Shown: piece after piece, positions 3,001 to 28,696 of the stretch
Layout of the letters: each line of letters starts with the position of its first letter
How positions within the stretch are numbered: position 1 is the stretch's first letter
Virus record (IMG/VR): IMGVR_UViG_3300030117_000657
Location: 1,309-33,522 of that record
Length of the DNA: 32,214 nucleotides
Origin: a virus
Strand: one strand, 5' to 3'
Notes under the pieces: model-generated
Seen by the model: only the letters and a program-made list of their open reading frames with translations
Told to the model about the DNA's origin: nothing
The model's database searches: none
Made by a program: the position numbers and the translations under genes

Positions 3001-3297
3001 CAAGCTATAAAACGTATAGATCGTGCAGTTAGTACAGAACGCACACAACTTCTCAGGCGGTTGTACATAGGATTACGCATGGGTGATGACGTAAGTGATG
3101 TGTACAACAGGATATTTAAATTCAATTCTGCGCATCCTACAGCGGGTATCAACGCTGCTACTATAAAGCGATCAATGAAGCAACACATGCGTACGTCCGT
3201 AAAGATGCACAACGGTGTTACACTTAGCCCTAACATGCAAGCAACCTTGAAGGGTCATGTAGCAGAGTATTGGGGGTATGATCTCTTTGACGAATAA
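1..3297 (+). CDS. Giant polyvalent/internal virion protein, C-terminal 1098 residues (5' end outside window)
   Basis: The frame is open from base 1 with no stop and ends at TAA 3295-3297. The GTG at 166 is therefore not the true start and the gene enters from the left. The first visible residues (EFVAETFGNPEFQ, about 17-29) resemble the large-polyvalent-protein-associated segments of very large phage proteins. The rest is charged and helix-rich. It has a hydrophobic stretch at about visible residues 813-845 (FFGVLLSSSLLAG and following), then an acidic patch (GDDEDD). Giant proteins of this kind are thought to be packaged in the capsid and ejected with the DNA, often carrying N-terminal enzymatic domains; that part is not visible here. 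It is the last gene of the rightward late transcript and converges on the - strand replication genes. The polyvalent family is likely; an enzymatic activity cannot be assigned. Confidence 0.75.
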   Translation, partial: NDVKDSLDTAYGAQNVDEFVAETFGNPEFQRKLAGINVKGEPINALQRFFNSVANVLRRAMKMQTKPVGSALNQADQLIEAMLAPAPEFRNAGKMYMGGNVIDMVKNTAARVKSPSTPAAKSEFLRKIADIINGGASKQTKAFTLFSLPLQAVTDLAKKYNLQKVAVKIQETIEEQVGDTNKADVKVDGTLKALEAWQKNNPTRTAKFNNVIYQSTTEGVDPTDKLKTENGKEFLLGEDGHKETDPEKIALWKDMTKKGGEWNSLGANGQATYIKMRDAYQIIYKDLRKVVDGQIDDLVADADDKVQLKQSIMQKLFEGKNIRPYFPLTRKGDRWVEYTALNERKNPLTGEVETTTETVYEAFESIVSRNERIEELKNDPRVTDKRSIKPYSNSKEIDFRNAAPESFVSKTLEILEKSKPDSKASPEEKAAHADQRRQIMELFINTLPETSFAKSMQKRGGKDGKGELGFDRDAFEAFRSRAYDLSRQVQRLKYSNKLRKLESELEKEFKSQSGTDQEKSVIVRDELLERSRFARNPPDNTMNRLAAQANRIAFLGTIGFNISSAVVNASQIPLVMAPMLNGKYRSTLGVGAAPKAVFNAMALITGSGLNRKISEIDPEAGTAKVRGTPSIDNYYEAGKDGKLFVRKDLELSDEKRKKLERLTPLVQMAGARGLLNRSLFYDTLGIDKTGRDRGAWESVNAYGALAFHVQESLNRQTALISAFDLEMQRMEKSGKVDPQAAATEALRMTQEMNGGAALATTGRIAQQGIGRVAMMYKGYGVQMYYTLFKTGDMAIDSMRKSGKYTAAESKAAKEQFFGVLLSSSLLAGVQGMPFVGATLMLANMFLGDDEDDAETILRKHIGELAYKGPLNAITGTDVASRIGLSNLLYRDNPYNSDASDADRVMEVLGGPAWSVYGQFRRGLKDVISENGDFERGVESMLPAAFRNFYKGLPGIGRFARDEGILTRRGDPIVDDVTTGGLVAQMLGFPPTEYTLAQEQNQAIKRIDRAVSTERTQLLRRLYIGLRMGDDVSDVYNRIFKFNSAHPTAGINAATIKRSMKQHMRTSVKMHNGVTLSPNMQATLKGHVAEYWGYDLFDE

Positions 3298-7413: not shown

Positions 7414-7704
7414 TTATTGATCTTCGTCAAGTAATTCTAATAGGTCAGCATCCTCGTCCGTTGCCACTTCTGGCTTCGCCACTGGCTCTACCGTAATCTC
7501 ATCCTCATCGTTATTGATGTCGGGTGCAGTCTTCTTGGTTGTTAGTGCTTCCGATATATCAGGGATGCAAAATCTATAGGTGTTGCCTACACGAATGTAG
7601 GTATCCTGCGGAATTTGATCCTGACGCACCCAAGCACGTATTGTAGATACAGAAACACTGAAGTGTTTTGCCACATCTTCAATGGGTACATACTTTGCTT
7701 CCAT
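7414..7704 (-). CDS. Small HTH DNA-binding protein (MerR/excisionase-like) with acidic tail
   Basis: 96 residues. Residues 5-30 (VPIEDVAKHFSVSVSTIRAW) form a clear MerR/excisionase-type helix-turn-helix with the typical S-STIRAW recognition helix. A wing follows (YIRVGNTYRF, 36-45). The last 35 residues are acidic (ITVEPV...DEDADLLELLDEDQ). The start ATG overlaps the upstream stop as TAATG, and AGGA lies seven bases before it. It may act as a transcriptional regulator or replication accessory. It is one of two visible HTH candidates for a protein that reads the 18-bp palindromes of this window, but nothing in the sequence proves that link. Confidence 0.75.
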   Translation of the reverse strand: MEAKYVPIEDVAKHFSVSVSTIRAWVRQDQIPQDTYIRVGNTYRFCIPDISEALTTKKTAPDINNDEDEITVEPVAKPEVATDEDADLLELLDEDQ

Positions 7705-8147: not shown

Positions 8148-9686
8148 TTAGTCAAGTATTTCTTTATAAAGGTCGATTATTTTTGTGTGTACGTCTATTC
8201 TGTTGTCTAACAGTGTGTAAACACGTTTCTCTACAGCCGAGCCGTGGAGCTGAACGACGGTGCATTTATGTTTTTGTCCTGACCTGTGAACACGAGCGTT
8301 AGCCTGTGCATATGTTTCCAACGAACTGGTTGGTCCCCACCACACCACAGTATTTGCCGCAGTAAGTGTAACGCCGTGAGACGCAGCTTGAGGTTGTATG
8401 ACAAGCACCCGTGGATTTGGCGTTTCTTGAAATGTTTTGAATATTTGTGTGCGGTTTGCAGCAGGCACATCACCCCTGATTATGTCGGTAGTGATGCCAT
8501 CTTTACGTAGTTTCTCTGTAAGAATATCAATCGTGTGCTTGAATGGCACGAATATCAAAACCTTCTGACTGGATTCGTCAATCACTTCTCGTAACACTTT
8601 GTAACGATGCGTGATGTCGAACTCCAACACATCGCTCTCGTCTGTGTACACAGCCCCTGCCGATATTTGTAGCAACTTACTCATCACCACGGCGGCATTG
8701 ATTGCAGTAATCTGTTCGCCTGTGATCTGCATGACTAGCTTCTTGCGTAACTGTTCGTAGTATTTCTTTTGCTGGCGAGTAAGTTCTACCTCGCGCTTGA
8801 CATAAACCATGGGTGGCAGGTCAAGACACTCGTCTTTCGTAAATCGTATGGCTGGTTGCAGTGCGCGGAACACTGTGTCAGTGGCGTTCTCTTTGGGTAT
8901 CCATTTAAAGTTTGTTATTTTAACCATGATCTGATCGCGGAAAGAACCAAAGAACCGTGGCACTGCTGTGGGGTTTATCAACTTTGCCAACCCATAAGCA
9001 TCCAATGGACTCTGTGCGGCTGGAGTGCCTGTCATCATCCACAGCCATGTGTCTGCGCCGACTAATTTGTTTAGAGTCTTCCATCGGTTGGTCTGGGCGT
9101 TCTTATAGTGTGTAGCCTCGTCCACGATGATTAGGTCAAACCCGCCTGCGGCTATCTCATCTTTTACAATAGCCAGACCATCATAGTTTATGATGACGTA
9201 CTCAGCACCCTGTTCGATTATCTCCTTGCGTTTTTTGCTGCTACCATGGGCCACGTCAACACGGCGGTGAGGCGCAAATGTAAACAAGTCATCACGCCAT
9301 GCGCTATCCATGATCGAGAGCGGACAGATAACTAACACACGATTGATTATCTTTTTGTTAAGCAAAAAGTCGGACGCCCATATAGCACTGGCGGTTTTGC
9401 CAGTGCCTTGCTCGTTAAAGCAGAAGGCTTTCCTGTTTAGTGTAAGAAATGCAGATGTTGTTTTCTGATGCGCGAAAGGCTCATAGCTTCCGGTCCATAA
9501 ATATTGTTTCTCTATGGGTGATGGAGCTTGGATGTTTAGGTTCTTGAGTACCTGTGTTTCGTCCACGCCCCACTTGACCACAACCTTGTTATCAGACAAG
9601 GCTTTGCTCTTTGGTATTACTTCTGTCACCTGTTGCGGGTTACGTAAACGCAACAACAACGCCCGTCCGTTCTGAATTATCTCCAC
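8148..9686 (-). CDS. SNF2/superfamily 2 helicase
   Basis: 512 residues. Motif I is FNEQGTGKTAS (residues 90-100), motif II IIVDEATHYKN (186-196), motif III MMTGTPAAQSP, and motif VI QANARVHRSGQ near the C-terminus, the signature of SNF2-type SF2 ATPases. Such phage proteins are DNA translocases or helicases for replication or recombination. The start is GTG 9684-9686, with AGGAG seven bases upstream. That Shine-Dalgarno overlaps the right end (on the transcript) of an 18-bp palindrome, so anything binding the palindrome or folding it could affect initiation. It is the leftmost gene carrying the palindrome. Confidence 0.9.
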   Translation of the reverse strand: MEIIQNGRALLLRLRNPQQVTEVIPKSKALSDNKVVVKWGVDETQVLKNLNIQAPSPIEKQYLWTGSYEPFAHQKTTSAFLTLNRKAFCFNEQGTGKTASAIWASDFLLNKKIINRVLVICPLSIMDSAWRDDLFTFAPHRRVDVAHGSSKKRKEIIEQGAEYVIINYDGLAIVKDEIAAGGFDLIIVDEATHYKNAQTNRWKTLNKLVGADTWLWMMTGTPAAQSPLDAYGLAKLINPTAVPRFFGSFRDQIMVKITNFKWIPKENATDTVFRALQPAIRFTKDECLDLPPMVYVKREVELTRQQKKYYEQLRKKLVMQITGEQITAINAAVVMSKLLQISAGAVYTDESDVLEFDITHRYKVLREVIDESSQKVLIFVPFKHTIDILTEKLRKDGITTDIIRGDVPAANRTQIFKTFQETPNPRVLVIQPQAASHGVTLTAANTVVWWGPTSSLETYAQANARVHRSGQKHKCTVVQLHGSAVEKRVYTLLDNRIDVHTKIIDLYKEILD

Positions 9687-9696
9687 TGTGTTCTCC

Positions 9697-9714
9697 TTTA
9701 CGGAATTCCGTAAA
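9697..9714. promoter_or_regulatory. 18-bp palindrome, copy 1
   Basis: Exact TTTACGGAATTCCGTAAA, flanked C/C. It fills the gap between the stop of the basic HNH-like gene (0 bases) and the GTG of the SNF2 gene (10 bases) and contributes the first A residues of its ribosome-binding site. Confidence 0.85.
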
Positions 9715-14648: not shown

Positions 14649-14951
14649 TTACCGTCCAAACGGTATCGTGTTGAGGCTTTGTGCTACCTCACCGACATTG
14701 GTCTCGTTTATGACTAACGCAAGACCACCCTGTTTGGATATATTATCCAAGGCTAACTGCTGTAGTGGTGTGGGCTTGTTCTTTCCAGCCTTACACTCGA
14801 TGCCAAAGAAAGTTCCCTGATAACATCCTACTATGTCTGGCACACCACTGGTGCCGTAGCCACCTGTTACTGGATAAAAGTAGTACGCACCCAAGTCTTT
14901 GAGGACTGCCACCACCTTCTTCTTTACTTTCGCTTCGGGCGTCATCGCCAT
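14649..14951 (-). CDS. VRR-NUC domain nuclease
   Basis: 100 residues from ATG 14951, chosen because GGAG lies six to seven bases before it; a GTG at 14990 has no site. The protein is essentially one VRR-NUC domain: GTSGVPDIVG (D39), FFGIECKAGKNKP (E52, K54) and TPLQQLAL (Q64). This PD-(D/E)XK subtype cuts branched DNA and is common in phages as a Holliday-junction resolvase-like enzyme. A 9-bp hairpin and one 18-bp palindrome sit in its leader. Confidence 0.9.
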   Translation of the reverse strand: MAMTPEAKVKKKVVAVLKDLGAYYFYPVTGGYGTSGVPDIVGCYQGTFFGIECKAGKNKPTPLQQLALDNISKQGGLALVINETNVGEVAQSLNTIPFGR

Positions 14952-14977
14952 CTGTATCTCCGTGTCGGAACTGGTTT

Positions 14978-15005
14978 CATGGGGCGACACACATGCCGCC
15001 CCATG
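14978..15005 (-). other. Leader hairpin upstream of VRR-NUC gene
   Basis: Perfect 9-bp arms CATGGGGCG 14978-14986 and CGCCCCATG 14997-15005, loop of 10. It lies between an 18-bp palindrome and the ribosome-binding site of the VRR-NUC gene, a layout repeated before the metallopeptidase-VWA gene. Confidence 0.6.
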
Positions 15006-15006
15006 G

Positions 15007-15024
15007 TTTACGGAATTCCGTAAA
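15007..15024. promoter_or_regulatory. 18-bp palindrome, copy 2
   Basis: Exact copy flanked G/G. It sits between the terminator of the upstream gene and the leader hairpin of the VRR-NUC gene, 55 bases before ATG 14951. Confidence 0.85.
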
Positions 15025-15069: not shown

Positions 15070-15480
15070 TCAACTCGGCGGTATCTCTTCAACATTTTCA
15101 ATGTTTGGGCAAAGTGAACTAACATCTACACCGTCACCAGTGGGGTATCCGTAGTTATCTAGTGACCACTCGTAGCTATCCACCTCACCGTTGTACAACG
15201 CGACACAAAAGTTCATCTCCCATCCTTCCTTGCCACATATCCAGAACGTATACTTGTCTATACGCTGACCCACGTCCTCAATCTCCTGCGTGGGTGGTTT
15301 AGGATCGACCATCATCAACAACGCAATCCGTTCTTGCACCCACTGGGGTAAATCTTCTACAGTAACGTAAGTGCCTTCCAGTTTGTTGTCAACCCTATCT
15401 ATGCCTATACATGACACTTGGACAGTATTTGTATCAGGGTCTATTGAAACACGGTATAACGTGTCATGATCTAACGACAT
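15070..15480 (-). CDS. Hypothetical acidic protein
   Basis: 136 residues from ATG 15480 (GAGGG eight bases upstream); the longer frame overlaps the previous gene by more than 50 bases without a site. It is acidic and beta-rich with no recognisable motif; the middle (WVQERIALLMMVD) is a short amphipathic helix. The start overlaps the upstream stop by 17 bases. Its partner upstream also ends in a similar VSMLAMVENDTYVDDVG pattern, hinting at local relatedness. Confidence 0.65.
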   Translation of the reverse strand: MSLDHDTLYRVSIDPDTNTVQVSCIGIDRVDNKLEGTYVTVEDLPQWVQERIALLMMVDPKPPTQEIEDVGQRIDKYTFWICGKEGWEMNFCVALYNGEVDSYEWSLDNYGYPTGDGVDVSSLCPNIENVEEIPPS

Positions 15481-16339
15481 AGAACAAACCCTCGTCTGCG
15501 CGGTAGCCAACATCGTCAACGTATGTATCGTTTTCGACCATAGCCAACATCGACACCTTACCCATTATATCCTCGGGCAGATCATCAGTGTAACGTGTGA
15601 ATTCGGTTGATACATTTGCGTGCCACGCACCCTTGTGTAGATCATCCACCATGCAGACGTCGAATGTCTGCTTGCCGAACTTCTCAAACACACGGACAAA
15701 GTAACAATGTATGGGCTTGTCCTTGAGTGACTTGTACTCGTCAAGTAAACTGAACATGGTAGTCAACTCAGTGCCAAACGAAGCGTCAATGAATTCATGG
15801 CCTGTATCCACAAGGTTACGCAACTCGGTCAGCATCCTGTTGGACTGACTGCTCTCATGGTCAAACAGGCCACGCATTGCGTTGCGATATTCATTGCCAG
15901 CACCACCCTCACTTTCCTGTGACTTTCTCGCCGCATTTTTGATGTTTGCCCTCGCCATCTCGCGTGGTGAGAAGTTACGGAGAAAACGCTTGGCGTTGCG
16001 TACGGCCGTGGCGATATTGATCGTCATCTTCATGTGATGCTGATCTTGATATGTGGCGTACTTGTCGTTGGTAATAGTGCGAGACGCTACCATATACATA
16101 GCGTCACCCTCAACCTCGGTGCGAAAGTCACCGTACCCGATATACCCCATGGGGTACGGCTCGTCAGGGTAATACACCCATGCCTTCTTACCACTGTTGT
16201 ACACCACGAACTCGACACCACGAAATGCCTCACGCACTTTCTGCATGAGCAATGACAGCCCACTGGTCGGTGGTATGGTGTTGCCGTTGTTCTCTTTGAG
16301 CATCACACTCACGGTCACGTCACTGAAGTTCTTTGCCAT
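15464..16339 (-). CDS. Hypothetical 291-residue protein
   Basis: Starts at ATG 16339 with AAGGG upstream, four bases after the stop of the preceding gene. The N-terminal 100 residues are beta-rich with a GYIGYGDFR motif, then a basic helical part (NAKRFLRNFSPREMARANIKN), then an acidic C-terminus. No family recognised and no signal or membrane segment. It belongs to the 15-21 kb block of uncharacterised early genes linked by palindromes. Confidence 0.7.
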   Translation of the reverse strand: MAKNFSDVTVSVMLKENNGNTIPPTSGLSLLMQKVREAFRGVEFVVYNSGKKAWVYYPDEPYPMGYIGYGDFRTEVEGDAMYMVASRTITNDKYATYQDQHHMKMTINIATAVRNAKRFLRNFSPREMARANIKNAARKSQESEGGAGNEYRNAMRGLFDHESSQSNRMLTELRNLVDTGHEFIDASFGTELTTMFSLLDEYKSLKDKPIHCYFVRVFEKFGKQTFDVCMVDDLHKGAWHANVSTEFTRYTDDLPEDIMGKVSMLAMVENDTYVDDVGYRADEGLFYVVRS

Positions 16340-16343
16340 CTTC

Positions 16344-17315
16344 TTACCCTTTCACTGTCTTGGTGAACCCGCAGGTCTTGTTGATCCACCTGTTGTATTC
16401 TGCCCTAACTACTTTTACGTCATTGTCTGACTGGATGTTACGAATAGTACCATAACTTGACACAAAGTCAACAGCCATGGCTAGACGTAGCGGATGGTTT
16501 TGTTTGGTGATTACCTGTCGCATGACCTCCGGTGTAATCGGGTTCCAGTACCCTCCACCTGTTGCCTCACGCACTTGTCGCTTCATCTCACTCCGATAAC
16601 CCCAGTCATCGACTTGGAGCATAGGAGCCATGGCACTGATCCACGCAAGGTAACTTGCCATGGCGTCCTTGTACTTGGCCTTCTGCTTCTTGTTGACCAA
16701 GGTACGAGGCGGCTTGGGTGCATCACACTCGTCCCCAACAAGCGTAAACTTGTTACCGTGATCTTCACGAAGGAACGTCAGCGCTGATCCGTCATCGGTT
16801 GCCCGCATCCATGAGGTAAAACCATTGGGAGTTGCATTAGCTTCATACACACAACGTGGCACATACATACACTTGGGCAAGTAGTGCTTGCCACTGTTGG
16901 CGAAGACGTACTGCTTACCGTATTTGATGTCGAGCATCATGCCGCGTGGTAGCATCCTGTCGAGGAACGAGTAGTGGCTCATGTGCGCACCGTTGCCAAT
17001 GCCGTTGCGTATGGTCACAGTCTCGGTGCCATCCTTGTGTCGTCTCCACACCACAGGCGATAGCGCGGCGATCTCTGCTTTTGTTAAGCCCACCCTTGAG
17101 TGGTGAGAATAGTAATGATACACGTCATCGTAGTAGCCCCCGTTCATGAGCGCGTAGCAGTTTGCTGATATCTTCTTTACACGCTCATGGTCACGCCTAC
17201 GGTCGCCGACCGGACGTACGTCCTTGCCTTTGTTCTTGCCACGCATAGGCTTGGTTCTGTTGTAAATGTTCTCCACCTCTGCGAATGATGTTGGTTTGAT
17301 ATATGGCGTTGCCAT
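16344..17315 (-). CDS. Hypothetical 323-residue protein
   Basis: Start ATG 17315 with AAAGG upstream, 15 bases after palindrome copy 3. The N-terminus is basic (RGKNKGKDVRPVGDRRRDHER), followed by a Tyr/His-rich part (YYDDVYHYYSHHSR) and a GNGAHMSHYSFLDRMLPRG segment. A Cys-containing stretch (LPKCMYVPRCVYEAN) and a helical C-terminus follow. I do not recognise a family. It is conserved in length with no sign of decay and lies directly downstream of the metallopeptidase-VWA gene. Confidence 0.7.
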   Translation of the reverse strand: MATPYIKPTSFAEVENIYNRTKPMRGKNKGKDVRPVGDRRRDHERVKKISANCYALMNGGYYDDVYHYYSHHSRVGLTKAEIAALSPVVWRRHKDGTETVTIRNGIGNGAHMSHYSFLDRMLPRGMMLDIKYGKQYVFANSGKHYLPKCMYVPRCVYEANATPNGFTSWMRATDDGSALTFLREDHGNKFTLVGDECDAPKPPRTLVNKKQKAKYKDAMASYLAWISAMAPMLQVDDWGYRSEMKRQVREATGGGYWNPITPEVMRQVITKQNHPLRLAMAVDFVSSYGTIRNIQSDNDVKVVRAEYNRWINKTCGFTKTVKG

Positions 17316-17330
17316 TGTTCTCTACCTTTC

Positions 17331-17348
17331 TTTACGGAATTCCGTAAA
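17331..17348. promoter_or_regulatory. 18-bp palindrome, copy 3
   Basis: Exact copy flanked C/C, one base after the stop of the VWA gene and 15 bases before the next ATG. The gap leaves room only for a ribosome-binding site. Confidence 0.85.
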
Positions 17349-17349
17349 C

Positions 17350-18555
17350 TTACATGTTGCTTGATTTGACATGAACTGTGATACCACAGTCGGGCTTGGC
17401 ACTGTCGTTGTCGATGACAACCCACAGCACAGGACATGACCACTGACCCCACGACCCACCAAGATAGCCATCGGTAATCACGATAACAGCTTGTGGTGTG
17501 ATGTGCTTGTCGGTCATGTATTCGGGGACACACTCGACAGTCGTGCCGCCACCACCCTTGGGTCGCGTTGACTGAACCATGGTGTCCAGATCTTTGGACT
17601 CGTACCTCTCGTCCTGACACACTTGGGTGTCCCAGTACAACAGACGCACAGCCTCGGGATGCACAGTGTCAGCGATTGACTTGATCTCGGTCAGTGCCAC
17701 CGATACCTCACGATCACCGATAGATGCTGACATGTCAGTGGCAATCACCAACTCGTCAACACGCTCGGAGATACCGCTTGGCAGATACACACCACCAGAC
17801 ATGAAACGCCTGTTGGGTCTGCGCCACGTTGAGTAGTCACTGCCTGTGCAAGTGGTTGTGATGAAGTCACGCATGACCTCGCGCCAATCGACTTGCGGCT
17901 GGAGCAACTCTTGCAAGTCACGATCACCACCTGTACCCATCTTGCCAGCGATCAACGCACCCTGACGTATTGCCTCGTCAATGTCGCGCTCCAACTCGCG
18001 TTGCTCATCGGCAGATAGTTCTTGCGCACCCTCAAAGTCGTGATCGTCCAATGGCTGACCGCCACCGTCACCGTCGCCACCATCGCCACCTTCTTGTGGT
18101 GGGTCTTGCTTGAGCATGTTGAACACTTGAGCCGTATCCATGCCACGATACTTCTCGTCATAACAACCTACTGTGAGTGGGCCTGTCATGGTTGCGAAGC
18201 CGTCCTTGTTGTCATCGGAAATCTTGAGGTTGATGACATAGTCCATCGCCATGTTGGCAAGCCGTGGGTTCTCGTCCCACAGATGCTTCCAAGTCTTGAG
18301 ATGAAGATACAGCTTGTGGTAGCACTCATGCAGTATGAGATAGCGAAACTCTGGATCGTTGCACTGATCTGCGAACGCACGACCATACACCTCGTCACGT
18401 CCGTTGGTGTAGGCTGTTGGTGTTGTCTCGCAGATACGCTTCTCACCGATCATCAATACGCCAGCCAGTGCGACATACTTGGGATTGCCCATGATGTCGA
18501 TGACACACTTGTTGAGCCGTTGCTCGGTAGTCAGTTGTTTTCCAATAGCAAGCAT
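17350..18555 (-). CDS. Metallopeptidase-like + VWA-like protein (DUF2201 type)
   Basis: 401 residues. The N-terminal half carries HECYH (76-80), the HExxH zinc motif, with NMAMDYVINL (101-110) as the expected following helix. A Gly/Asp linker (155-170) leads to a C-terminal VWA-like domain: VIATDMSASIGD (MIDAS DxSxS, D274-S278) and GGGGTTVECVPEY (MIDAS threonine). This matches the DUF2201 putative metallopeptidase/VWA family, normally paired with a MoxR AAA+ ATPase, which is present one gene upstream. MoxR/VWA pairs act as remodelling chaperones or metal inserters; the phage substrate is unknown. AAGGA precedes ATG 18555. Its leader holds a 9-bp hairpin and palindrome copy 4. Confidence 0.85.
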   Translation of the reverse strand: MLAIGKQLTTEQRLNKCVIDIMGNPKYVALAGVLMIGEKRICETTPTAYTNGRDEVYGRAFADQCNDPEFRYLILHECYHKLYLHLKTWKHLWDENPRLANMAMDYVINLKISDDNKDGFATMTGPLTVGCYDEKYRGMDTAQVFNMLKQDPPQEGGDGGDGDGGGQPLDDHDFEGAQELSADEQRELERDIDEAIRQGALIAGKMGTGGDRDLQELLQPQVDWREVMRDFITTTCTGSDYSTWRRPNRRFMSGGVYLPSGISERVDELVIATDMSASIGDREVSVALTEIKSIADTVHPEAVRLLYWDTQVCQDERYESKDLDTMVQSTRPKGGGGTTVECVPEYMTDKHITPQAVIVITDGYLGGSWGQWSCPVLWVVIDNDSAKPDCGITVHVKSSNM

Positions 18556-18565
18556 TGGTCTGTCC

Positions 18566-18590
18566 TTTCTGGGTGAGGCACACGCCCCAC
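18566..18590 (-). other. Leader hairpin upstream of metallopeptidase-VWA gene
   Basis: On the transcript, GGGTGGGGC pairs with GCCTCACCC around a GTGT loop (9 bp, one G-U). It lies between palindrome copy 4 and the AAGGA site. Coordinates are approximate to a few bases. Confidence 0.5.
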
Positions 18591-18597
18591 CCTGTTG

Positions 18598-18615
18598 TTT
18601 ACGGAATTCCGTAAA
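18598..18615. promoter_or_regulatory. 18-bp palindrome, copy 4
   Basis: Exact copy flanked G/G, two bases after the stop of the small gene at 18618-18818 and 42 bases before the VWA start. Confidence 0.85.
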
Positions 18616-18617
18616 GA

Positions 18618-18818
18618 TTACTTCTTGTTACGTCTTTTTCGTTTTGGTTCTACATACAGAGTGAAATTCCAAATGGGTTTGCCGTTACCTTGCTCCCCCA
18701 CTACTGAGCGCCACTCCCACTTGAAGTGTTCGTTCAAGTGTTCTTCCAATGCAGATTCCATCGCGTTAATAACTTGAGTGGAACCCCCATACATGATGTC
18801 TTCTTTACATTCTTTCAT
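18618..18818 (-). CDS. Small hypothetical protein between MoxR and VWA genes
   Basis: 66 residues with an excellent ribosome-binding site (GGAGG six bases before ATG 18818), 10 bases after the MoxR stop. The N-terminal half is acidic helical (INAMESALEEHLNEHF), the C-terminal part beta-like, ending with a basic tail (EPKRKRRNKK). No family recognised. The position inside the MoxR/VWA pair suggests a partner or regulator of that complex. Confidence 0.65.
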   Translation of the reverse strand: MKECKEDIMYGGSTQVINAMESALEEHLNEHFKWEWRSVVGEQGNGKPIWNFTLYVEPKRKRRNKK

Positions 18819-18828
18819 TGTAACCTCC

Positions 18829-19923
18829 CTACTTCTTGTCAGCCGCGAACATGTAGTTGTTGTCCATGGCCCACTGGGTGAACTTCTTGTTTGTCATAAC
18901 GAGTGACTGCTTGGCGTACTTGGGTGCGCGTACGCCATTGGCGAACATACCCTGTGCCTCTTTGTCGAGACGGACTAGGTAGTCCATCCATGAGTCAAGC
19001 CAGTCTCTCTCCAAAGATGCTAGGGTGCGATACACCACCATACACACACCGGCAGCACTGCTCGGCACCTTGGCGTTCTTTGGGTCTTGCTTGATCGACT
19101 CGGCACTTGGCAGTTGGTCAGCCAGCTTGACAAACGCCATCAAGTCCATCGCACCACGCTCACCGATAGTACCCATGAGTGCGGCTGTCACGGTCTGATC
19201 GTCTAGTCCATCTCGCGCCTTGAGTATGTCACTCGCCGCTTCCAACGAGCGGGGTGTAACAAACGCGGCTCTCTGCTGCTTGGGATGGAAGATGTACGGA
19301 TTGTCGTCTGGGTCTTTGATGTCCTCAAACGAGTAGAATAGTTGCGGGTTGTCTTTACACCAGCCCAATAGCGTGTGGTCGATTTCATTGTTGATACCCC
19401 ATTCAATCCATTCCATGTTGGTAGGCTTGCGTGTAGTCACGACCGTCATGCGGTTGCGAGCATGTGGTGGTAACAAGTCACCGACACCCTCGGAACCTTT
19501 GTTGGTCGTGGCGAAGATAATGCTGTCAGGGTGTAGCGTGTAGCTACCGATTTTACGCTCCAGTATAAGACGTAACAGTGCGTTCTTGACAGCAGGATTG
19601 GCCTTGCCGAACTCGTCAACCATGATGATGACAGGCGTGTGATGATGCACACCAAGCTCTTCATTGGTGAGATACGTCACATAGCCTGTGCCATCATCCA
19701 TCTTGGCGAGGTTGGGTATGGTGATGTCACCCAAGTCCTTGGTCGTACAATCGAAGTAGCACGGTGTGTGATTGGGCAGTGCCTTGGCAAGCGTGGTAAG
19801 AAGTGTTGACTTGCCTGTACCCATGTCACCCTGCACAAGCACGGTGCGCATTTTACCTATTGCTAGAACCACTGCCTCAACTTGGTCAAGTCCCAGTGCG
19901 TACATTGTTGTTGCTGTATTCAT
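18829..19923 (-). CDS. MoxR-type AAA+ ATPase
   Basis: 364 residues from ATG 19923, whose GGAG site overlaps a less likely ATG four codons upstream. Walker A is GDMGTGKST (32-40), Walker B IIMVDEFGKA (99-108), sensor 1 ATTNKG (N141), with arginine-finger candidates in HARNRM (R156, R158). This is the MoxR/CbbQ-like AAA+ layout, with a C-terminal helical lid. Such ATPases form hexamers that deliver energy to a VWA-protein partner; the VWA gene is one small gene downstream. It probably remodels a protein or metal centre during infection. It is preceded by palindrome copy 5. Confidence 0.88.
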   Translation of the reverse strand: MNTATTMYALGLDQVEAVVLAIGKMRTVLVQGDMGTGKSTLLTTLAKALPNHTPCYFDCTTKDLGDITIPNLAKMDDGTGYVTYLTNEELGVHHHTPVIIMVDEFGKANPAVKNALLRLILERKIGSYTLHPDSIIFATTNKGSEGVGDLLPPHARNRMTVVTTRKPTNMEWIEWGINNEIDHTLLGWCKDNPQLFYSFEDIKDPDDNPYIFHPKQQRAAFVTPRSLEAASDILKARDGLDDQTVTAALMGTIGERGAMDLMAFVKLADQLPSAESIKQDPKNAKVPSSAAGVCMVVYRTLASLERDWLDSWMDYLVRLDKEAQGMFANGVRAPKYAKQSLVMTNKKFTQWAMDNNYMFAADKK

Positions 19924-19949
19924 GATAGTCTCCATTCTTTCAAGAGTTG

Positions 19950-19967
19950 TTTACGGAATTCCGTAAA
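19950..19967. promoter_or_regulatory. 18-bp palindrome, copy 5
   Basis: Exact copy flanked G/G, one base after the stop of the DUF3150-like gene and 26 bases before ATG 19923 of the MoxR gene. Confidence 0.85.
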
Positions 19968-19968
19968 G

Positions 19969-20889
19969 TTACATGCCGATTGATGGTAGTGATTTGATTA
20001 CCTCGTCCACGGTGCGCTTAGTCTCTGACCGTAGATGGGCATCCTCGCGCAGTGCATCAGCATTGACACCACGAAAAGCATCTTCAAGTTTCATTTGTGC
20101 CGCGTTCATCTGGCTGTCGCCTGTGACGTTACACACGTTAAGAAGTTCTACCATGTCAAACACGTTACCAACGAGACTGTCACGAAAGACTTTCTTCTTT
20201 TCATGATCTGAGTAGTCGAGCCGCTCGGACATATGCGAGAGTGCGTCATGTAAACGTGTCCACACGTCATTCATTGCGTTGTTTAACTGTGCCGAATAGT
20301 AGGACTGATAGTGATCCTTGACTTGCTCGGTTGCCTCATTGCCGATGTCGATACGAAAGTCACCAGCATCAGGCAGTGGGATATACGACAAGCGAAACCC
20401 GAACTTGTTGCGTAGACTGTCAACGGATGGATACTCGTTGCGATCAAACAAGTCACCTAGCTTTGCGGATGCTTGAGTGATCTCCCATTCGTAACTGTAC
20501 AGAAACAAGTCAACAAGCCTGTCATACTCGTTCTGGATGTCAGTCATTGCCTGATGATACTTGAAGTATTGAGCCGTTGGCAAAAGACGCAAGCCTGTGT
20601 CAGACCATGGCATTGTCATGGCGTAGTGTATGTTGCGGCTGTTGGCTGTGAACTTCTGTACCGCCATGAGTTCTTGGCAGTCAGCGAGCAGCTTCTTGTG
20701 TACAGACGCTACACCGGACGCGGCATGGTTGTCTGTGGTAACATCTTCTGATGCTTTCTTGTCTTTCTTGCGTCCTGTCCATGTTGAGATGGACAACTCA
20801 CAAAGCATGGCAGATGATCCGATGCTTGGTGTGGATGGTGCGGGGTTTACGGAATTCCGTAAAGTTTCGGTTGAGATAATCTGTGTCAT
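19969..20889 (-). CDS. DUF3150-like protein
   Basis: 306 residues, start ATG 20889 with AGGAG six to seven bases upstream. The segment LCELSISTWTGRKKDKKASE (about 29-48) and later MPWSDTGLRLLPTAQYFKY resemble DUF3150 proteins, which in phages and mobile elements occur near MoxR AAA+ and VWA genes; I rate this moderately. The rest is helical. Oddly, palindrome copy 6 lies inside the coding sequence and encodes residues 9-15 (TLRNSVN). The alternative downstream ATG (residue 28) has no ribosome-binding site, so the site really seems to be translated. Confidence 0.7.
   Translation of the reverse strand: MTQIISTETLRNSVNPAPSTPSIGSSAMLCELSISTWTGRKKDKKASEDVTTDNHAASGVASVHKKLLADCQELMAVQKFTANSRNIHYAMTMPWSDTGLRLLPTAQYFKYHQAMTDIQNEYDRLVDLFLYSYEWEITQASAKLGDLFDRNEYPSVDSLRNKFGFRLSYIPLPDAGDFRIDIGNEATEQVKDHYQSYYSAQLNNAMNDVWTRLHDALSHMSERLDYSDHEKKKVFRDSLVGNVFDMVELLNVCNVTGDSQMNAAQMKLEDAFRGVNADALREDAHLRSETKRTVDEVIKSLPSIGM
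20846..20863. promoter_or_regulatory. 18-bp palindrome, copy 6 (inside a gene)
   Basis: Exact copy flanked G/G, 26 bases into the DUF3150-like coding sequence. It is the only copy inside a coding sequence. Confidence 0.8.
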
Positions 20890-20912
20890 GTCGTTCTCCT
20901 GTGTGACAAGTT

Positions 20913-21101
20913 TTAGTGCATTGTGTGGACGTAACCGAGTTCGGTCAGTTCTTTGATAGTCTCCGCGATAGCCACTGCAATATCTTCTGCATATGACTGT
21001 GACGGCTGTGTCCAGCCGAGGTCTTCCAAATGCTTGAGGTGGTCAAGCGCCATCTCTACACGGCGCAGGGTGGGGTTCTCAATGTGTGCGTAGTTCTTCA
21101 T
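20913..21101 (-). CDS. Small hypothetical protein next to the origin-like region
   Basis: 62 residues. Helical, with a basic/acidic mix (RRVEMALDHLKHLEDLG; EDIAVAIAETIKELTELG), looking like two or three helices. There are no motifs. GAGAA before ATG 21101 is a weak site, 15 bases after palindrome copy 7. It is the first - strand gene after the 750-bp non-coding region. Confidence 0.6.
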   Translation of the reverse strand: MKNYAHIENPTLRRVEMALDHLKHLEDLGWTQPSQSYAEDIAVAIAETIKELTELGYVHTMH

Positions 21102-21116
21102 CGGTCATTCTCTTTC

Positions 21117-21134
21117 TTTACGGAATTCCGTAAA
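21117..21134. promoter_or_regulatory. 18-bp palindrome, copy 7
   Basis: Exact copy flanked C/C, 15 bases before ATG 21101. On the - strand it shares a 27-base block with copy 9 (palindrome plus GAAAGAGAA). Confidence 0.85.
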
Positions 21135-21150
21135 CTGTGGTTGTAATGTA

Positions 21151-21172
21151 CCAAAATTTAGTCGAATTTTGG
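21151..21172. repeat. Inverted repeat CCAAAATT-6-AATTTTGG
   Basis: Perfect 8-bp arms with a TAGTCG spacer, 16 bases right of palindrome copy 7. Its A/T-rich, operator-like geometry suggests a dimer-binding site or small hairpin. Confidence 0.5.
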
Positions 21173-21274
21173 CGATGATGAATACTACCACAGGTAGCGT
21201 TTACTGTCAATACATGGTGAACAGTTATTATAAATATATAAATAGGGTAAAACTTGGTGAACGGTGTGTTGTTG

Positions 21275-21620
21275 TGTAATGTACTGTAATGTTCTTATGT
21301 GGTGGTGTGTAACGCATTGGAAAGACAGCAATGTTCTTTTGTTCGTTTTTTGAGGTTTTTGGACACCTGCCTCGACGCCCTCTCAGACTTTACGGAATTC
21401 CGTAAACTACCCATGTACCCTCCAACAAACCTTAATAATATTTGAAAAAACGAACATTACACTACTACTACAAGATTAGATAAGATTAGATAAGTTCTGA
21501 TAGGCAAACCTCGGCATTGCCTGCTATGCATCACCACGCCCCACCACCAAAACATAATGTTCTAACAGTGGCAAAAAAAAACGAACATTACGGAACATTA
21601 GAAAGAACATTAGAACATTG
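21275..21620. repeat. GAACATT iteron cluster
   Basis: Copies (either strand) at 21277-21284 (variant TAATGTAC), 21287-21294, 21330-21336, 21452-21459, 21555-21562, 21583-21590, 21593-21600, 21605-21612 and 21613-21620. The last four are 8-12 bases apart, about one helix turn, as expected for initiator-bound iterons. AAAAAACGAAC precedes two direct copies and occurs inverted at 21341-21351. Confidence 0.65.
21389..21406. promoter_or_regulatory. 18-bp palindrome, copy 8
   Basis: Exact copy flanked C/C, in the middle of the iteron cluster and 287 bases from the nearest gene start, so it is not simply a gene-leader element. Confidence 0.85.
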
Positions 21621-21646
21621 GCTCAACGCGGCTCTAAGTAACTGGT
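21620..21646. repeat. Direct repeat, copy 1 (27-base core)
   Basis: Core GGCTCAACGC(G)GCTCTAAGTA plus ACTGGT; one base differs from the other two copies. It abuts the last iteron and is 10 bases from palindrome copy 9. Confidence 0.75.
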
Positions 21647-21655
21647 TTCTCTTTC

Positions 21656-21673
21656 TTTACGGAATTCCGTAAA
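21656..21673. promoter_or_regulatory. 18-bp palindrome, copy 9
   Basis: Exact copy flanked C/C, between direct repeat copies 1 and 2, with no gene start nearby. Confidence 0.85.
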
Positions 21674-21724
21674 CTTGTTATGACACACAACGCTTCCAGC
21701 CAATTGCATATGTTTTTGTATTTG

Positions 21725-21759
21725 ATGCGAGTGGCTCAACGCAGCTCTAAGTAACTGGT
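21725..21759. repeat. Direct repeat, copy 2 (35 bases)
   Basis: Identical over 35 bases (from ATGCGAGTGGCTC to ACTGGT) to copy 3, starting 51 bases before it. Confidence 0.8.
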
Positions 21760-21775
21760 CTCTTAACGTGTCACT

Positions 21776-21810
21776 ATGCGAGTGGCTCAACGCAGCTCTA
21801 AGTAACTGGT
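21776..21810. repeat. Direct repeat, copy 3 (35 bases)
   Basis: Second perfect 35-base copy. It ends 12 bases before the terminator of the small gene at 21856-22056. Confidence 0.8.
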
Positions 21811-21822
21811 TTCAAAAGGCAC

Positions 21823-21850
21823 AAAAAAAGGCAGGACCGAAGCCCTGCCT
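21823..21850 (-). terminator. Strong leftward intrinsic terminator (UUCG loop)
   Basis: On the - strand AGGCAGGGC-TTCG-GTCCTGCCT (9-bp stem, one G-U, UUCG tetraloop) is followed by seven T. It starts five bases after the stop of the 66-residue gene and shields the origin-like region from leftward transcription. Confidence 0.9.
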
Positions 21851-21855
21851 GATCT

Positions 21856-22056
21856 TTATTTGAACAGTCGATATTCCCGAGGGAAGTCTTGCATCCGTTC
21901 ATTCGCTTGGCGTTTAGCAATTAGTGCCATTGCCAAGTGATGCCTTGCATAACCGCGATGATGGCCAGTATCTTCTGATTTTTCCAGCCATTCAGTAAGT
22001 TGTTCTTCTGTGTAATTAGTACACAGTGAATATTCAGTGTCGTTTAACTTAGTCAT
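21856..22056 (-). CDS. Small hypothetical protein
   Basis: 66 residues, AGGAG eight bases before ATG 22056, overlapping the preceding stop by 8 bases. Helical and charged, with TEEQLTEWLEKSEDTGHHRG in the middle. No family recognised. It ends just before a strong terminator, so it closes a short transcript with the membrane protein gene. Confidence 0.65.
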   Translation of the reverse strand: MTKLNDTEYSLCTNYTEEQLTEWLEKSEDTGHHRGYARHHLAMALIAKRQANERMQDFPREYRLFK

Positions 22057-22294
22057 CTAACGCGCTCCTGTATCCAAAAAATGCAACAAGACCGCCTAAG
22101 ATAATCCATCCAGCCTGCAAAGCGATGCCCCATATAGGCCATGGATCAGTAGATATTTCGCCGATAGACATACCGATTAAGACCATCAGTATGCCTAGAA
22201 ATGTTATGACAACACCAGCAATACGCCGAAACTTTTTAGCGCGTTGCTGTTGCTGTTTTGCTTTACGCCACCGTTCTACAGTTTGATCTTTCAT
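22049..22294 (-). CDS. Small membrane protein, two transmembrane segments
   Basis: 81 residues with a basic cytoplasmic N-terminus (KAKQQQQRAKKFRR), hydrophobic segments at about 25-42 and 54-74, and a short loop with STDPWPIWG. AGAGGA precedes ATG 22294. The topology is compatible with a small holin-like or host-envelope protein. However, its early-region, origin-side location argues against a lysis gene; host takeover or anchoring of replication are alternatives. No family recognised. Confidence 0.65.
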   Translation of the reverse strand: MKDQTVERWRKAKQQQQRAKKFRRIAGVVITFLGILMVLIGMSIGEISTDPWPIWGIALQAGWIILGGLVAFFGYRSALDD

Positions 22295-22316
22295 AACGTA
22301 TCCTCTTATGATGAAA

Positions 22317-22338
22317 GGGCAGGACCGAAGCCCTGCCC
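22317..22338 (-). terminator. Leftward hairpin, second copy of the UUCG terminator stem
   Basis: GGGCAGGGC-TTCG-GTCCTGCCC on the - strand, sharing a 20-base core with the terminator at 21829-21850, but followed only by TTT. It lies 9 bases after the stop of the 202-residue gene, so it is probably a weak or partial terminator. Confidence 0.65.
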
Positions 22339-22347
22339 TAAGTTGTT

Positions 22348-22956
22348 TTAGTGAGTCACCGACTTGGTCGGTGACTTAGTCAGCTTGGCAATCTCTTTTA
22401 GAAGCTCGACCACCTTTGCCTGATTTTTCAAGTGGTGAGGTTTTGCCTTATCGGCATTTGCCATTATCTGGCCTAGTGCCTTGTTGGCGTGGATGTTAAC
22501 ACGTTCCTGCAAGGGCTTGACGCCACCGGTCTTCTTCTTAGTCTTGCCAGAATTTATGGCATCGACCTCGGCGGCTTTGGACTTGCGAGTGCTGATCCAT
22601 GTACCGACCTTTTGTCCTGCCGATGTCCTGTCAGCCTGCATAGCAAGTTGTACCGGTTCAGAGCGCTTTTTCTTAAGCGCCATAAACTCTTTATTGCTGG
22701 GCTTGAACGCTATCCTTTCGGCCCGAGTAAGCAAGGGCTTTCTAAACTTATCCTTTGCGTTATTGGCCACGACCTGACGGAACGTTTCCCATGCCTCGGG
22801 CGATAACGTACCGCCAGACTTGGGACTTGTGAACGTCATTTCGGTAAATTCGCGGGTTTTGATTTCCGCCATTACCAAACCGTCAGCACCCTCGGCCTTG
22901 TTAACAGTACGCACAAATGCAACATCCGGTGTTGCCACGTTAGAACGATTAGTCAT
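22348..22956 (-). CDS. Hypothetical basic protein, first leftward gene
   Basis: 202 residues from ATG 22956 with AAGGA upstream, 19 bases after palindrome copy 10. The N-terminus is beta-like (MAEIKTREFTEMTFTS), followed by a long basic region (KPLLTRAERIAFKPSNKE; KSKAAEV...GKTKKKTGG) that is probably nucleic-acid binding. No family recognised. The final codons and stop lie in a 10-bp perfect hairpin (22354-22363 / 22367-22376), an odd overlap of coding sequence and RNA structure. As the first gene of the early strand it is a candidate early regulator. Confidence 0.65.
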   Translation of the reverse strand: MTNRSNVATPDVAFVRTVNKAEGADGLVMAEIKTREFTEMTFTSPKSGGTLSPEAWETFRQVVANNAKDKFRKPLLTRAERIAFKPSNKEFMALKKKRSEPVQLAMQADRTSAGQKVGTWISTRKSKAAEVDAINSGKTKKKTGGVKPLQERVNIHANKALGQIMANADKAKPHHLKNQAKVVELLKEIAKLTKSPTKSVTH

Positions 22957-22975
22957 GATGACTAGATCCTTTCTG

Positions 22976-22993
22976 TTTACGGAATTCCGTAAA
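22976..22993. promoter_or_regulatory. 18-bp palindrome, copy 10
   Basis: Exact copy, uniquely flanked G/C so that it extends to 20 palindromic bases, 19 bases before ATG 22956. Confidence 0.85.
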
Positions 22994-23097
22994 CTCTATG
23001 AGCTGGCAGTATGCCTTGCTCTGATGGTTATAATATGGCACATCGGCGCGGTAATTGAAATGGATAGACTGTAAACGTGTTATTATTTATCTAATAC

Positions 23098-23115
23098 TTT
23101 ACGGAATTACGTAAA
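23098..23115. promoter_or_regulatory. 18-bp palindrome, degenerate copy 11
   Basis: TTTACGGAATTACGTAAA: one base differs, breaking one base pair of the palindrome and the central GAATTC. Flanked C/C. It is the rightmost copy, in the divergent control region. Confidence 0.75.
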
Positions 23116-23188
23116 CATGGCAAGCAATAGCAAAACCTGACAGGCGATGACCCACCCCACCCCCATGACCCGCTATATGTCAGCAGTT

Positions 23189-23204
23189 ACATACACGTGT
23201 ATGT
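23189..23204. repeat. 16-bp palindrome centred on CACGTG
   Basis: ACATACACGTGTATGT, a perfect palindrome unrelated to the 18-bp family, about 160 bases before the terminase small-subunit start. A candidate operator for late gene control. Confidence 0.5.
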
Positions 23205-23298
23205 ATGTCTAATTTATACGAACAATCCTGTTTTTTCTGGGTTCGACCCCCCACCCCCTCTCACACAGGAACACCCCCTGGTAGGAGTCCCAACCTCC

Positions 23299-23327
23299 TT
23301 GCACAAAAAAATATTATACTGTATATG
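23299..23327 (+). promoter_or_regulatory. Weak sigma70-like promoter for terminase genes
   Basis: TTGCAC, 17 bases, TATATG; an overlapping TATACT at 23315-23320 is a better -10 but lacks a -35. It lies 35 bases upstream of ATG 23362. Low confidence. Confidence 0.25.
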
Positions 23328-28128: not shown

Positions 28129-28326
28129 ATGGCTAAAACCGTCTTTGATGTGCTTTCTGACAAACTGAACGAGGATAAAACCTCTGCATTACAGTTTCTT
28201 GGTAGTGGTGGAGCTAAAGACTTCGCCCAATACAAGGAAGTTACAGGCTTAATCCGAGGTCTTGACGCCTGTCTTAACTATGTAAATGACCTCTCGCGCA
28301 ATCAACTGGAAGATGATGATGACTGA
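28129..28326 (+). CDS. Small acidic head-region protein
   Basis: 65 residues: VFDVLSDKLNEDKTSALQFL then a KEVTGLIRGLDACLNYVNDL helix and an EDDDD end. Such small proteins are common between portal and scaffold in marine phages; function unknown. Its last codons overlap the ATG triplets of the next gene. Confidence 0.7.
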   Translation: MAKTVFDVLSDKLNEDKTSALQFLGSGGAKDFAQYKEVTGLIRGLDACLNYVNDLSRNQLEDDDD

Positions 28327-28696
28327 AGCAATCAAAAAAATTACTCCCGATGAAGATTGGGATGCACAACTACCCAAGCCTTGTGGATACCGCATATTGG
28401 TAGCTTTGCCTGATATTGAAGATTACTATCAAGGTAGTAGTCTGCTAAAGACAGACAGTGAAAAACACAAAGAGTACATCATGTCTATCATGGGAGCAGT
28501 TATCGACATGGGCGAAAGCGCCTATAGCGATGAAGAGCGATTTCCTTCCGGTCCATGGTGCAAGGTGGGTGATTATGTGATGTTCCGCATGAACACAGGC
28601 ACTAGATTCAAGGTAAACGGCAAAGAGTTTAGGTTGATGAATGACGATTCCATTGAGGCAGTGGTTCCTGATCCTCGTGGTATCTGCAAAGTATGA
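28319..28696 (+). CDS. GroES-like co-chaperonin (Cpn10-type)
   Basis: 125 residues from the third ATG (28319), seven bases after GGAAG. The fold pattern is that of a Cpn10 barrel: CGYRILVALPDIEDYYQGSS (mobile-loop region, 22-41), MGAVIDMGESAY, and WCKVGDYVMFRMNTGTRF (81-98), with KEFRLMNDDSIEAVV at the end. GroES normally reads a C-terminal D-V...VGD-V pattern; VGDYVMF fits. Placed in the head module, it probably partners host GroEL to fold the capsid protein, like T4 gp31, though unrelated in sequence. Confidence 0.8.
   Translation: MTEAIKKITPDEDWDAQLPKPCGYRILVALPDIEDYYQGSSLLKTDSEKHKEYIMSIMGAVIDMGESAYSDEERFPSGPWCKVGDYVMFRMNTGTRFKVNGKEFRLMNDDSIEAVVPDPRGICKV

Follow-up and report, generated by a model that had tools for sequence, protein, structure and literature searches.

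Cluster A mycobacteriophages such as L5 and TipsytheTRex carry 20-30 dispersed stoperators per genome and, in the parts of the published accounts that we draw on, the stoperator motif and the repressor change together from one subcluster to the next, the repressor gene has a site for which autoregulation is proposed, and most sites lie in short intergenic spaces (PMC6550527, PMC9283540). The L5 sites are described there as asymmetric, 13 bp long and bound by a monomer with a helix-turn-helix (HTH). The corresponding part of the cluster K account describes start-associated sequences (SAS) and extended SAS (ESAS), inverted repeats that closely precede the translation starts of the same gene families and have a consensus set by subcluster, the ESAS being 17-bp imperfect repeats with 4-13 bp spacers beside a 13-bp SAS (PMC3203893). 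In this study, we analysed 32,214 nucleotides of IMG/VR virus record IMGVR_UViG_3300030117_000657 (positions 1,309 to 33,522; hereafter the window, 32.2 kb out of a 33.5-kb record), in which one palindrome recurs across the early genes. In the sequences compared here such palindromes are repeated, turn over by type, and covary with one protein and with one helix of it. The whole arrangement looks like an undescribed gene-control switch, not a set of private signals of a metal-enzyme module; title and abstract searches found no description of it in the literature, most subscription journals being outside their coverage.

Repeated palindromes in the early region

The 18-bp palindrome TTTACGGAATTCCGTAAA is present in the window as 10 exact copies and one copy with a single mismatch, spread over 13.4 kb. 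With up to three mismatches allowed, the window holds 11 matches, against 0.02 expected. The sites, to which no strand is assigned, are these:

9697-9714: palindromic site ahead of the helicase gene 8148-9686, at a distance of 10 nt; helicase-upstream site in 15 of 22 loci
15007-15024: palindromic site upstream of the nuclease-like gene
17331-17348: palindromic site, 15 nt upstream of gene 16344-17315; counterpart in 29 of 41 loci
18598-18615: palindromic site ahead of the VWA gene, at a distance of 42 nt; 29 of 67 loci have a site upstream of VWA
19950-19967: palindromic site ahead of the MoxR gene, at a distance of 14 nt; 43 of 58 loci have a site upstream of MoxR
20846-20863: palindromic site inside the DUF3150-like coding sequence
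21117-21134: palindromic site, 15 nt upstream of the 62-amino-acid open reading frame (ORF) 20913-21101
21389-21406: palindromic site in noncoding DNA
21656-21673: palindromic site in noncoding DNA
22976-22993: palindromic site ahead of the first early gene, 19 nt from its ATG
23098-23115: one-mismatch palindromic site of the divergent region, lying within a weak promoter-like match at 23123-23096 (minus strand)

The site at 20846 lies about nine codons past the DUF3150-like ATG, which has an AGGAG of its own, and relatives carry a site within the first 100 nt of the DUF3150 gene in 11 of 21 testable loci. The original prediction had noticed palindromes at the main genes of a DUF3150-like, MoxR and VWA module and held that each member has its own. 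The observation stands, in that exact copies of one 18-bp sequence begin at 17331, 18598, 19950 and 20846, but they are not specific to the module. We rejected a private palindrome for each module gene because the same sequence stands elsewhere in the window; the claim misreads a site set that is specific to the genome type, extends over the early genes and also serves genes that are not in the module. As a separate observation, TTTACGGAATTCCGTAAA occurs once in an orthologous context of many Flavobacterium genomes (L206-L237), probably without any relation to these phages.

Relatives carry comparable sets. The loci were retrieved via MoxR, VWA or first-gene proteins and are therefore a biased sample. 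A repeated palindrome family, defined as at least three palindromes sharing one 6-nt stem, was found in 67 of 73 dereplicated relatives, with 3-13 sites in each relative that has one (11 in the window); Markov shuffles of the same 73 reached one copy (72 relatives) or two (1). The family is uniform within a genome and often different between genomes. The window is of the TTTACGG type, and at the same gene positions relatives have TGTTAGTG-NNN-CACTAACA, GTTAGGG-ANT-CCCTAAC, TTTAGGG, GTTAGTC, TTTACGC or GTAGTG. At homologous sites the flanks can stay while the palindrome is exchanged: genomes G001 and G002 share 96-99% DNA identity over 13 kb on the terminase side, yet identity falls to 28-35% at their MoxR and VWA sites, whose 60-nt flanks are at 88-98%, and to about 30-50% in their first-gene tracts. 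In near-complete 60-kb relatives the repeated family is restricted to the early region, and one mosaic genome (L019/G008) has GTTAGTG sites together with two TTTACGG sites around its own DUF3150 gene. In N4 and SBP1 (both with MoxR and VWA but no DUF3150) and in four terminase relatives, no stem occurs more than twice in the 20-50 kb scanned from each.

Covariation of the first early gene with palindrome type

The protein that follows the palindrome type is encoded by the first early gene:

22348-22956, minus strand: first early gene, 202 amino acids, of a fast-evolving all-helical family ('FAM') built by iterated hidden Markov model search; identity tracks palindrome type; proposed operator-binding regulator

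The iterated profile gathered 38 ORFs, including that of the window, in 37 of the 50 loci with enough upstream DNA. Among close pairs, that is, phages whose MoxR proteins are at least 85% identical, mean identity of the first-gene protein is 0.63 for 26 pairs of the same palindrome type and 0.22 for 19 pairs of different type, a difference reached by 4 of 5000 permutations; the lowest same-type value is 0.35 and the highest different-type value 0.37. There was no comparable split in MoxR, DUF3150, VWA, 16344, 15464, 15070, 14649, DUF6378 or polA, the last six being represented by only 7-18 pairs. L012 and L013 illustrate the pattern, since their MoxR and VWA proteins are 98% identical (the L013 VWA is partial), their first-gene proteins 18%, and their palindromes differ. 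Other candidates for the covarying regulator were set aside: DUF6378, 16344, 15464 and others do not track palindrome type; in the HTH protein at 7414-7704, the HTH part barely differs from the one in a GTTAGTG-type genome; and DUF3150, despite two suggestive diagnostic residues, shows 94% identity between L075 and L085, two loci of different palindrome type.

Covariation was followed to single residues. First-gene proteins were found in 195 loci, 151 of them also with at least three palindromes, several being overlapping pieces of one contig; 54 dereplicated representatives of these 151 were compared, dereplication being the sole phylogenetic correction. The six of 165 columns most strongly associated with type are residues 96, 97, 99, 104, 107 and 108, all in helix 89-121. 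Residues 104 and 107 rank best of all columns, and residues 46 and 50, outside the helix, come next. Residue 104 is A in 25 of 26 GTTAGTG-type proteins and S in 7 of 8 GTTAGGG-type proteins (Fisher 1.5e-6), and residue 107 is N or G in 26 of 26 of the former and K in 7 of 8 of the latter (Fisher 1.5e-6). The fuller table holds one exception, the GTTAGTG-type L342 (same contig as L081), which has K at residue 107. A rule for residue 108, D with an inner G and K with an inner C, holds for the GTTAGTC types L036, L086 and L108 and for GTTATAC; the exceptions are Q in L103, T in TTTACGG, E in TTTACGC and T in TTCGGGC.

An AlphaFold2 model of a GTTAGTG-type first-gene protein is a confident all-helical monomer (predicted local distance difference test score, pLDDT, 88) with residues 96-108 in one long helix, and the model of the window protein (mean pLDDT 71.5) has a long helix at 100-135. 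The protein has no Pfam or NCBIfam match at E<=1, and its PHROG matches reach only E 0.002 and 0.15. PDB and BFVD searches gave nothing significant, the best BFVD match having E 0.033; a missing fold match is no evidence of a new fold. In phages of the AATACTGT type we observed a different, possibly analogous first early gene (in L149, the same gene as G019:52089-52631), matched in only three loci.

How the palindromes may be read

We think it fairly probable that the palindromes are binding sites of a regulator that the phage encodes in its first early gene and that would block early transcription. We infer DNA binding, a dimer, repression or a roadblock, its timing and exclusion in the following way. 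Each phage lineage would have its own pair of regulator and palindrome. The regulator, probably as a dimer, would read the two half-sites with the helix that carries the covarying residues; it would occupy the site just upstream of its own gene, and so regulate itself, as well as about ten early-region sites that precede selected genes or lie just within them (DUF3150, MoxR, VWA, 16344 and helicase). Once bound, it would stop transcription initiation or elongation, and the early region would be turned off later in infection, possibly also in superinfecting phages of the same type. Sites are associated with starts, a Shine-Dalgarno sequence and start lying within 60 nt downstream of 280 of 520 sites (control 762 of 2920) with a peak at 10-25 nt, and no conserved promoter element was found at -40 to -7 in the 520 sites; interference with elongation or a roadblock therefore fits better than one promoter per gene.

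Several observations weigh against such a regulator. No member of the first-gene family was detected in 13 of 50 loci, mostly of other palindrome types, nor in cyanophage MinM2, which has palindromes. No DNA-binding domain or fold was recognised in the family with Pfam, NCBIfam, PDB or BFVD. The window member has the weaker model (pLDDT 71.5) and is 12-19% identical to GTTAGTG-type members, to which it is joined by profile iteration and synteny. Palindrome switches among close phages are few, about three of them independent. Centres of 3 nt and of 4 nt occur side by side in some genomes, a mixture that a rigid dimer should not accept; a strand bias is frequent in the central letters (CACG 18 to 1, AATC 16 to 2); and among GTTAGTG-type sites with a 3-nt centre, symmetry in that centre is rare (72 of 194).

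The mixed centre lengths, the strand-biased centres and the closeness to Shine-Dalgarno sequences keep alive an unlikely alternative at the RNA level, in which the palindromes are mRNA hairpins beside the ribosome-binding site that the first-gene protein binds or cuts, so controlling translation. Lambda N with boxB and the coat-protein hairpins are the comparisons for such control, and centres of 3-4 nt, which vary in length inside some genomes, make good hairpin loops. What speaks against it is that the stems are exact (495 perfect) and that the 24 internal one-mismatch sites have no preference for G-U pairs (2 on the sense strand, 4 on the antisense strand, 18 other). In several types, moreover, the symmetry continues to a single central base, through positions that could not pair in an RNA loop (A-N-T in 54 of 54, C-N-G in 60 of 61), and sites also lie inside coding sequences and in noncoding DNA. 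A protein that reads duplex DNA is favoured because of the exact stems without G-U preference, the symmetric centres in several types and the covariation in one helix.

It is less probable still that the first-gene locus and the palindromes are merely exchanged together, as a linked hypervariable block with no direct interaction. The first-gene tract is indeed a sharp replacement block, but conserved DNA stands between it and the sites, the farthest of which are about 13 kb off, the next gene on the terminase side does not follow type (86% for the window and the other-type G008, 80% for the same-type G001 and G008), and the covarying columns cluster in one helix. We give even less weight to a host-encoded DNA-binding protein as the reader, with the phage type following the host. 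A precedent exists in the host regulator SrpA, which, in the part of the account we draw on, binds palindromes in Pseudomonas phage K5 (PMC5945682), but the covarying protein here is phage-encoded, and in the genome collection TTTACGGAATTCCGTAAA occurs in 32 stretches, one copy in each, many of them in one orthologous Flavobacterium context; no host regulon shows, because the occurrences are single copies. Hairpin promoters, which N4-type virion RNA polymerase uses, were rejected because the palindrome centres are not conserved; a search for T7-type RNA polymerase had no match in 20 records, but is uninformative, as its control also had no match anywhere.

Returning to the phage-encoded regulator, lysogeny is without support, since no tyrosine integrase (PF00589, 0 of 19 records; controls positive 14 of 14), resolvase (PF00239, 0 of 14) or ParB (PF02195, 0 of 14) was found, several of the records being fragments; plasmid-type partition by ParB was dismissed on the same 14 records. 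A bolder and distinctly tentative proposal is that an immunity-like specificity system operates in strictly lytic phages. Its operator-binding proteins would form a new class, in which one helix holds a simple residue-to-base code, and their pairs with about ten palindromes would be swapped in concert between otherwise near-identical phages, with selection favouring escape from repression by a co-infecting phage of like type. The natural allele swaps between phages 96-99% identical over 13 kb provide ready controls for a joint change in specificity of a regulator and its multi-site operators, and they bear on whether phages without an integrase keep immunity groups. The first-gene family, with no described relatives in the libraries searched, is a candidate for a protein-DNA recognition code, and the site set would tell which genes, the MoxR/VWA module included, share common early control.

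The putatively controlled genes and comparison with known systems

On the minus strand of the window are the replication genes polA, helicase, primase, single-stranded DNA-binding protein and exonuclease, and on the plus strand terminase, portal and head genes. The genes and signals next to the sites are as follows, all on the minus strand:

14649-14990: small nuclease-like protein; weak RecU match, E 0.011; from its sequence we take it to be VRR-NUC-like
15070-15519: conserved protein, 149-amino-acid ORF, found in relatives
15464-16339: conserved protein, 291 amino acids, found in relatives
16344-17315: conserved protein, 323 amino acids, found in relatives
17350-18555: DUF2201 putative metallopeptidase with VWA domain, 401 amino acids; DUF2201_N 64 bits and DUF2201 51.9 bits, both above cut-off
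18618-18818: small ORF, 66 amino acids, not conserved
18829-19935: MoxR-type AAA+ ATPase, 368 amino acids; AAA_5 above cut-off, PHROG 1297 E 7.5e-49
19969-20889: DUF3150-like protein, 306 amino acids; Pfam E 7.7e-5, 22.6 bits
21182-21210: promoter-like match TTGACA-17-TAGTAT with TG, preceding the DUF3150-MoxR-VWA run; consensus match only
21829-21850: terminator-like hairpin ending in a T6 tail, located past the first three early genes; 7 such found against 3.0 expected

The promoter-like matches are not above chance (6 found, 4.2 expected), and Rfam had no match in 20800-23300 at gathering scores. Near-identical GC-rich, terminator-like stem-loops, GGCAGGACCGAAGCCCTGCC, lie at 21826-21849 and 22314-22337. 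A 38-nt repeat (GGCTCAACGC.GCTCTAAGTAACTGGT) has three copies, at 21612-21649, 21725-21762 and 21776-21813, and in relatives similar motifs (CCAGTT...GCG..GAGCC) come after palindromes. Units of GAACATTA are repeated in the noncoding region (21445-21460, 21576-21591 and nearby) and are possibly iterons of a replication origin. Elsewhere in the window, 28286-28696 is a GroES-like co-chaperonin gene flanked by portal and head genes (PHROG 3188, E 1e-11), and 1-3297 is the 3' part of a very large ORF that matches DarB-like and other giant phage proteins (PHROG 10089, E 8.1e-55).

The original prediction placed DUF3150-like, MoxR and DUF2201-VWA genes in that order, with HECYH and DMSAS motifs in the VWA partner, and all of this is borne out on the minus strand. 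The order DUF3150-MoxR-VWA-16344-15464-15070-14649-polA-exonuclease-helicase recurs in relatives within this marine phage family, except that DUF3150 follows VWA in L149 and L159. The predicted co-occurrence also holds, a VWA partner being present in 150 of 152 loci with a MoxR match; these loci were mostly retrieved with the same two proteins, and a less circular set of 98 loci with a first-gene protein and at least 5 kb downstream agrees (DUF3150 98/98, MoxR 98/98, VWA 97/98). The small gene between MoxR and VWA, counted in the module by that prediction, is not a conserved member, since it was matched in only three examined records. The window protein narrowly misses the DUF3150 (PF11348) gathering cut-off of 24.9 bits; its MinM2 homologue is annotated DUF3150.

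The two enzymes belong with the MoxR AAA+/VWA pairs, an ATPase with Walker A and B adjoining a VWA protein with a metal ion-dependent adhesion site (MIDAS) and, in this branch, HExxH. Relatives keep HExxH in 63 of 64 and DxSxS in 64 of 64 VWA proteins, and the Walker A and Walker B patterns each in 65 of 66 MoxR proteins. The PHROG label 'HNH endonuclease' for the VWA family is unsupported by the Pfam match and by the HExxH and MIDAS motifs. PADLOC gave two weak matches, both to MoxR only (mad8, E 1.4e-6, residues 18-56; PDC-M37B, E 0.0043). We propose that MoxR, VWA and DUF3150 form a separate conserved enzyme module under the control of the regulator; judged by its families, it is most likely an ATPase that remodels or metallates a target via its VWA/metallopeptidase partner.

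Among the phage records of the collection, 15400-23100 had no DNA-level match, and the nearest isolates by terminase protein (41-47%) are Pelagibacter phages HTVC027P and HTVC023P, phages 023Pt_psg01 and DSL-LC04, and MinM2. In 50,697 phage records MoxR matches 471 and VWA 689, all below 60% identity, and DUF3150 matches only the cyanophages MinM2, Pag-Yong1 and Pra-JY27, the only isolates with such a match. Literature searches found no paper for MinM2 and cyanophage, nor for DUF3150, within the same journal coverage as above. Like the window, MinM2 carries MoxR, VWA and a palindrome of its own, CGGTTCAG-N-CTGAACCG, upstream of many genes; unlike the early-region families, its sites are genome-wide, and no first-gene homologue is detectable. 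About 35 palindromes of this kind were counted (L242, L205, L243), those of the early region often 21-28 nt before annotated starts. N4 (Schitoviridae) likewise has an adjacent MoxR-like ATPase, gp24, and a DUF2201/VWA-type gp25, now annotated 'HNH endonuclease'. In N4-type phages, however, DUF3150 is neither annotated nor matched, MoxR is 24-28% identical among the matches listed, and no repeated palindromes were found in the scanned stretches of N4 (35 kb) and SBP1 (45 kb).

In their logic the sites resemble the cluster A stoperators as those accounts present them: they are dispersed and repeated, one lies at the gene of the candidate regulator, and the motif diverges together with that candidate repressor. 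They differ from the L5 sites in being palindromic, with only the centre strand-biased, and not asymmetric 13-bp sequences in one orientation, and the system differs in its all-helical first-gene protein, in which no HTH was detected, and in that no integrase was found. A cluster A repressor pairs an N-terminal HTH with a stoperator domain, and its action is to halt elongation of transcription. With SAS/ESAS, as described in the part of PMC3203893 used here, they share inverted repeats upstream of the starts of the same gene families and a sequence that depends on type; a protein covaries with them here, and none is described for ESAS in that part. The flank profile of the 520 sites showed no second strongly conserved block within 40 nt, the SAS sequence itself not having been searched. 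We have filed the palindromes under neither name because the site is symmetric, no HTH was detected and SAS were not looked for; by analogy, they would appear to work most like stoperators and to be placed like SAS/ESAS.

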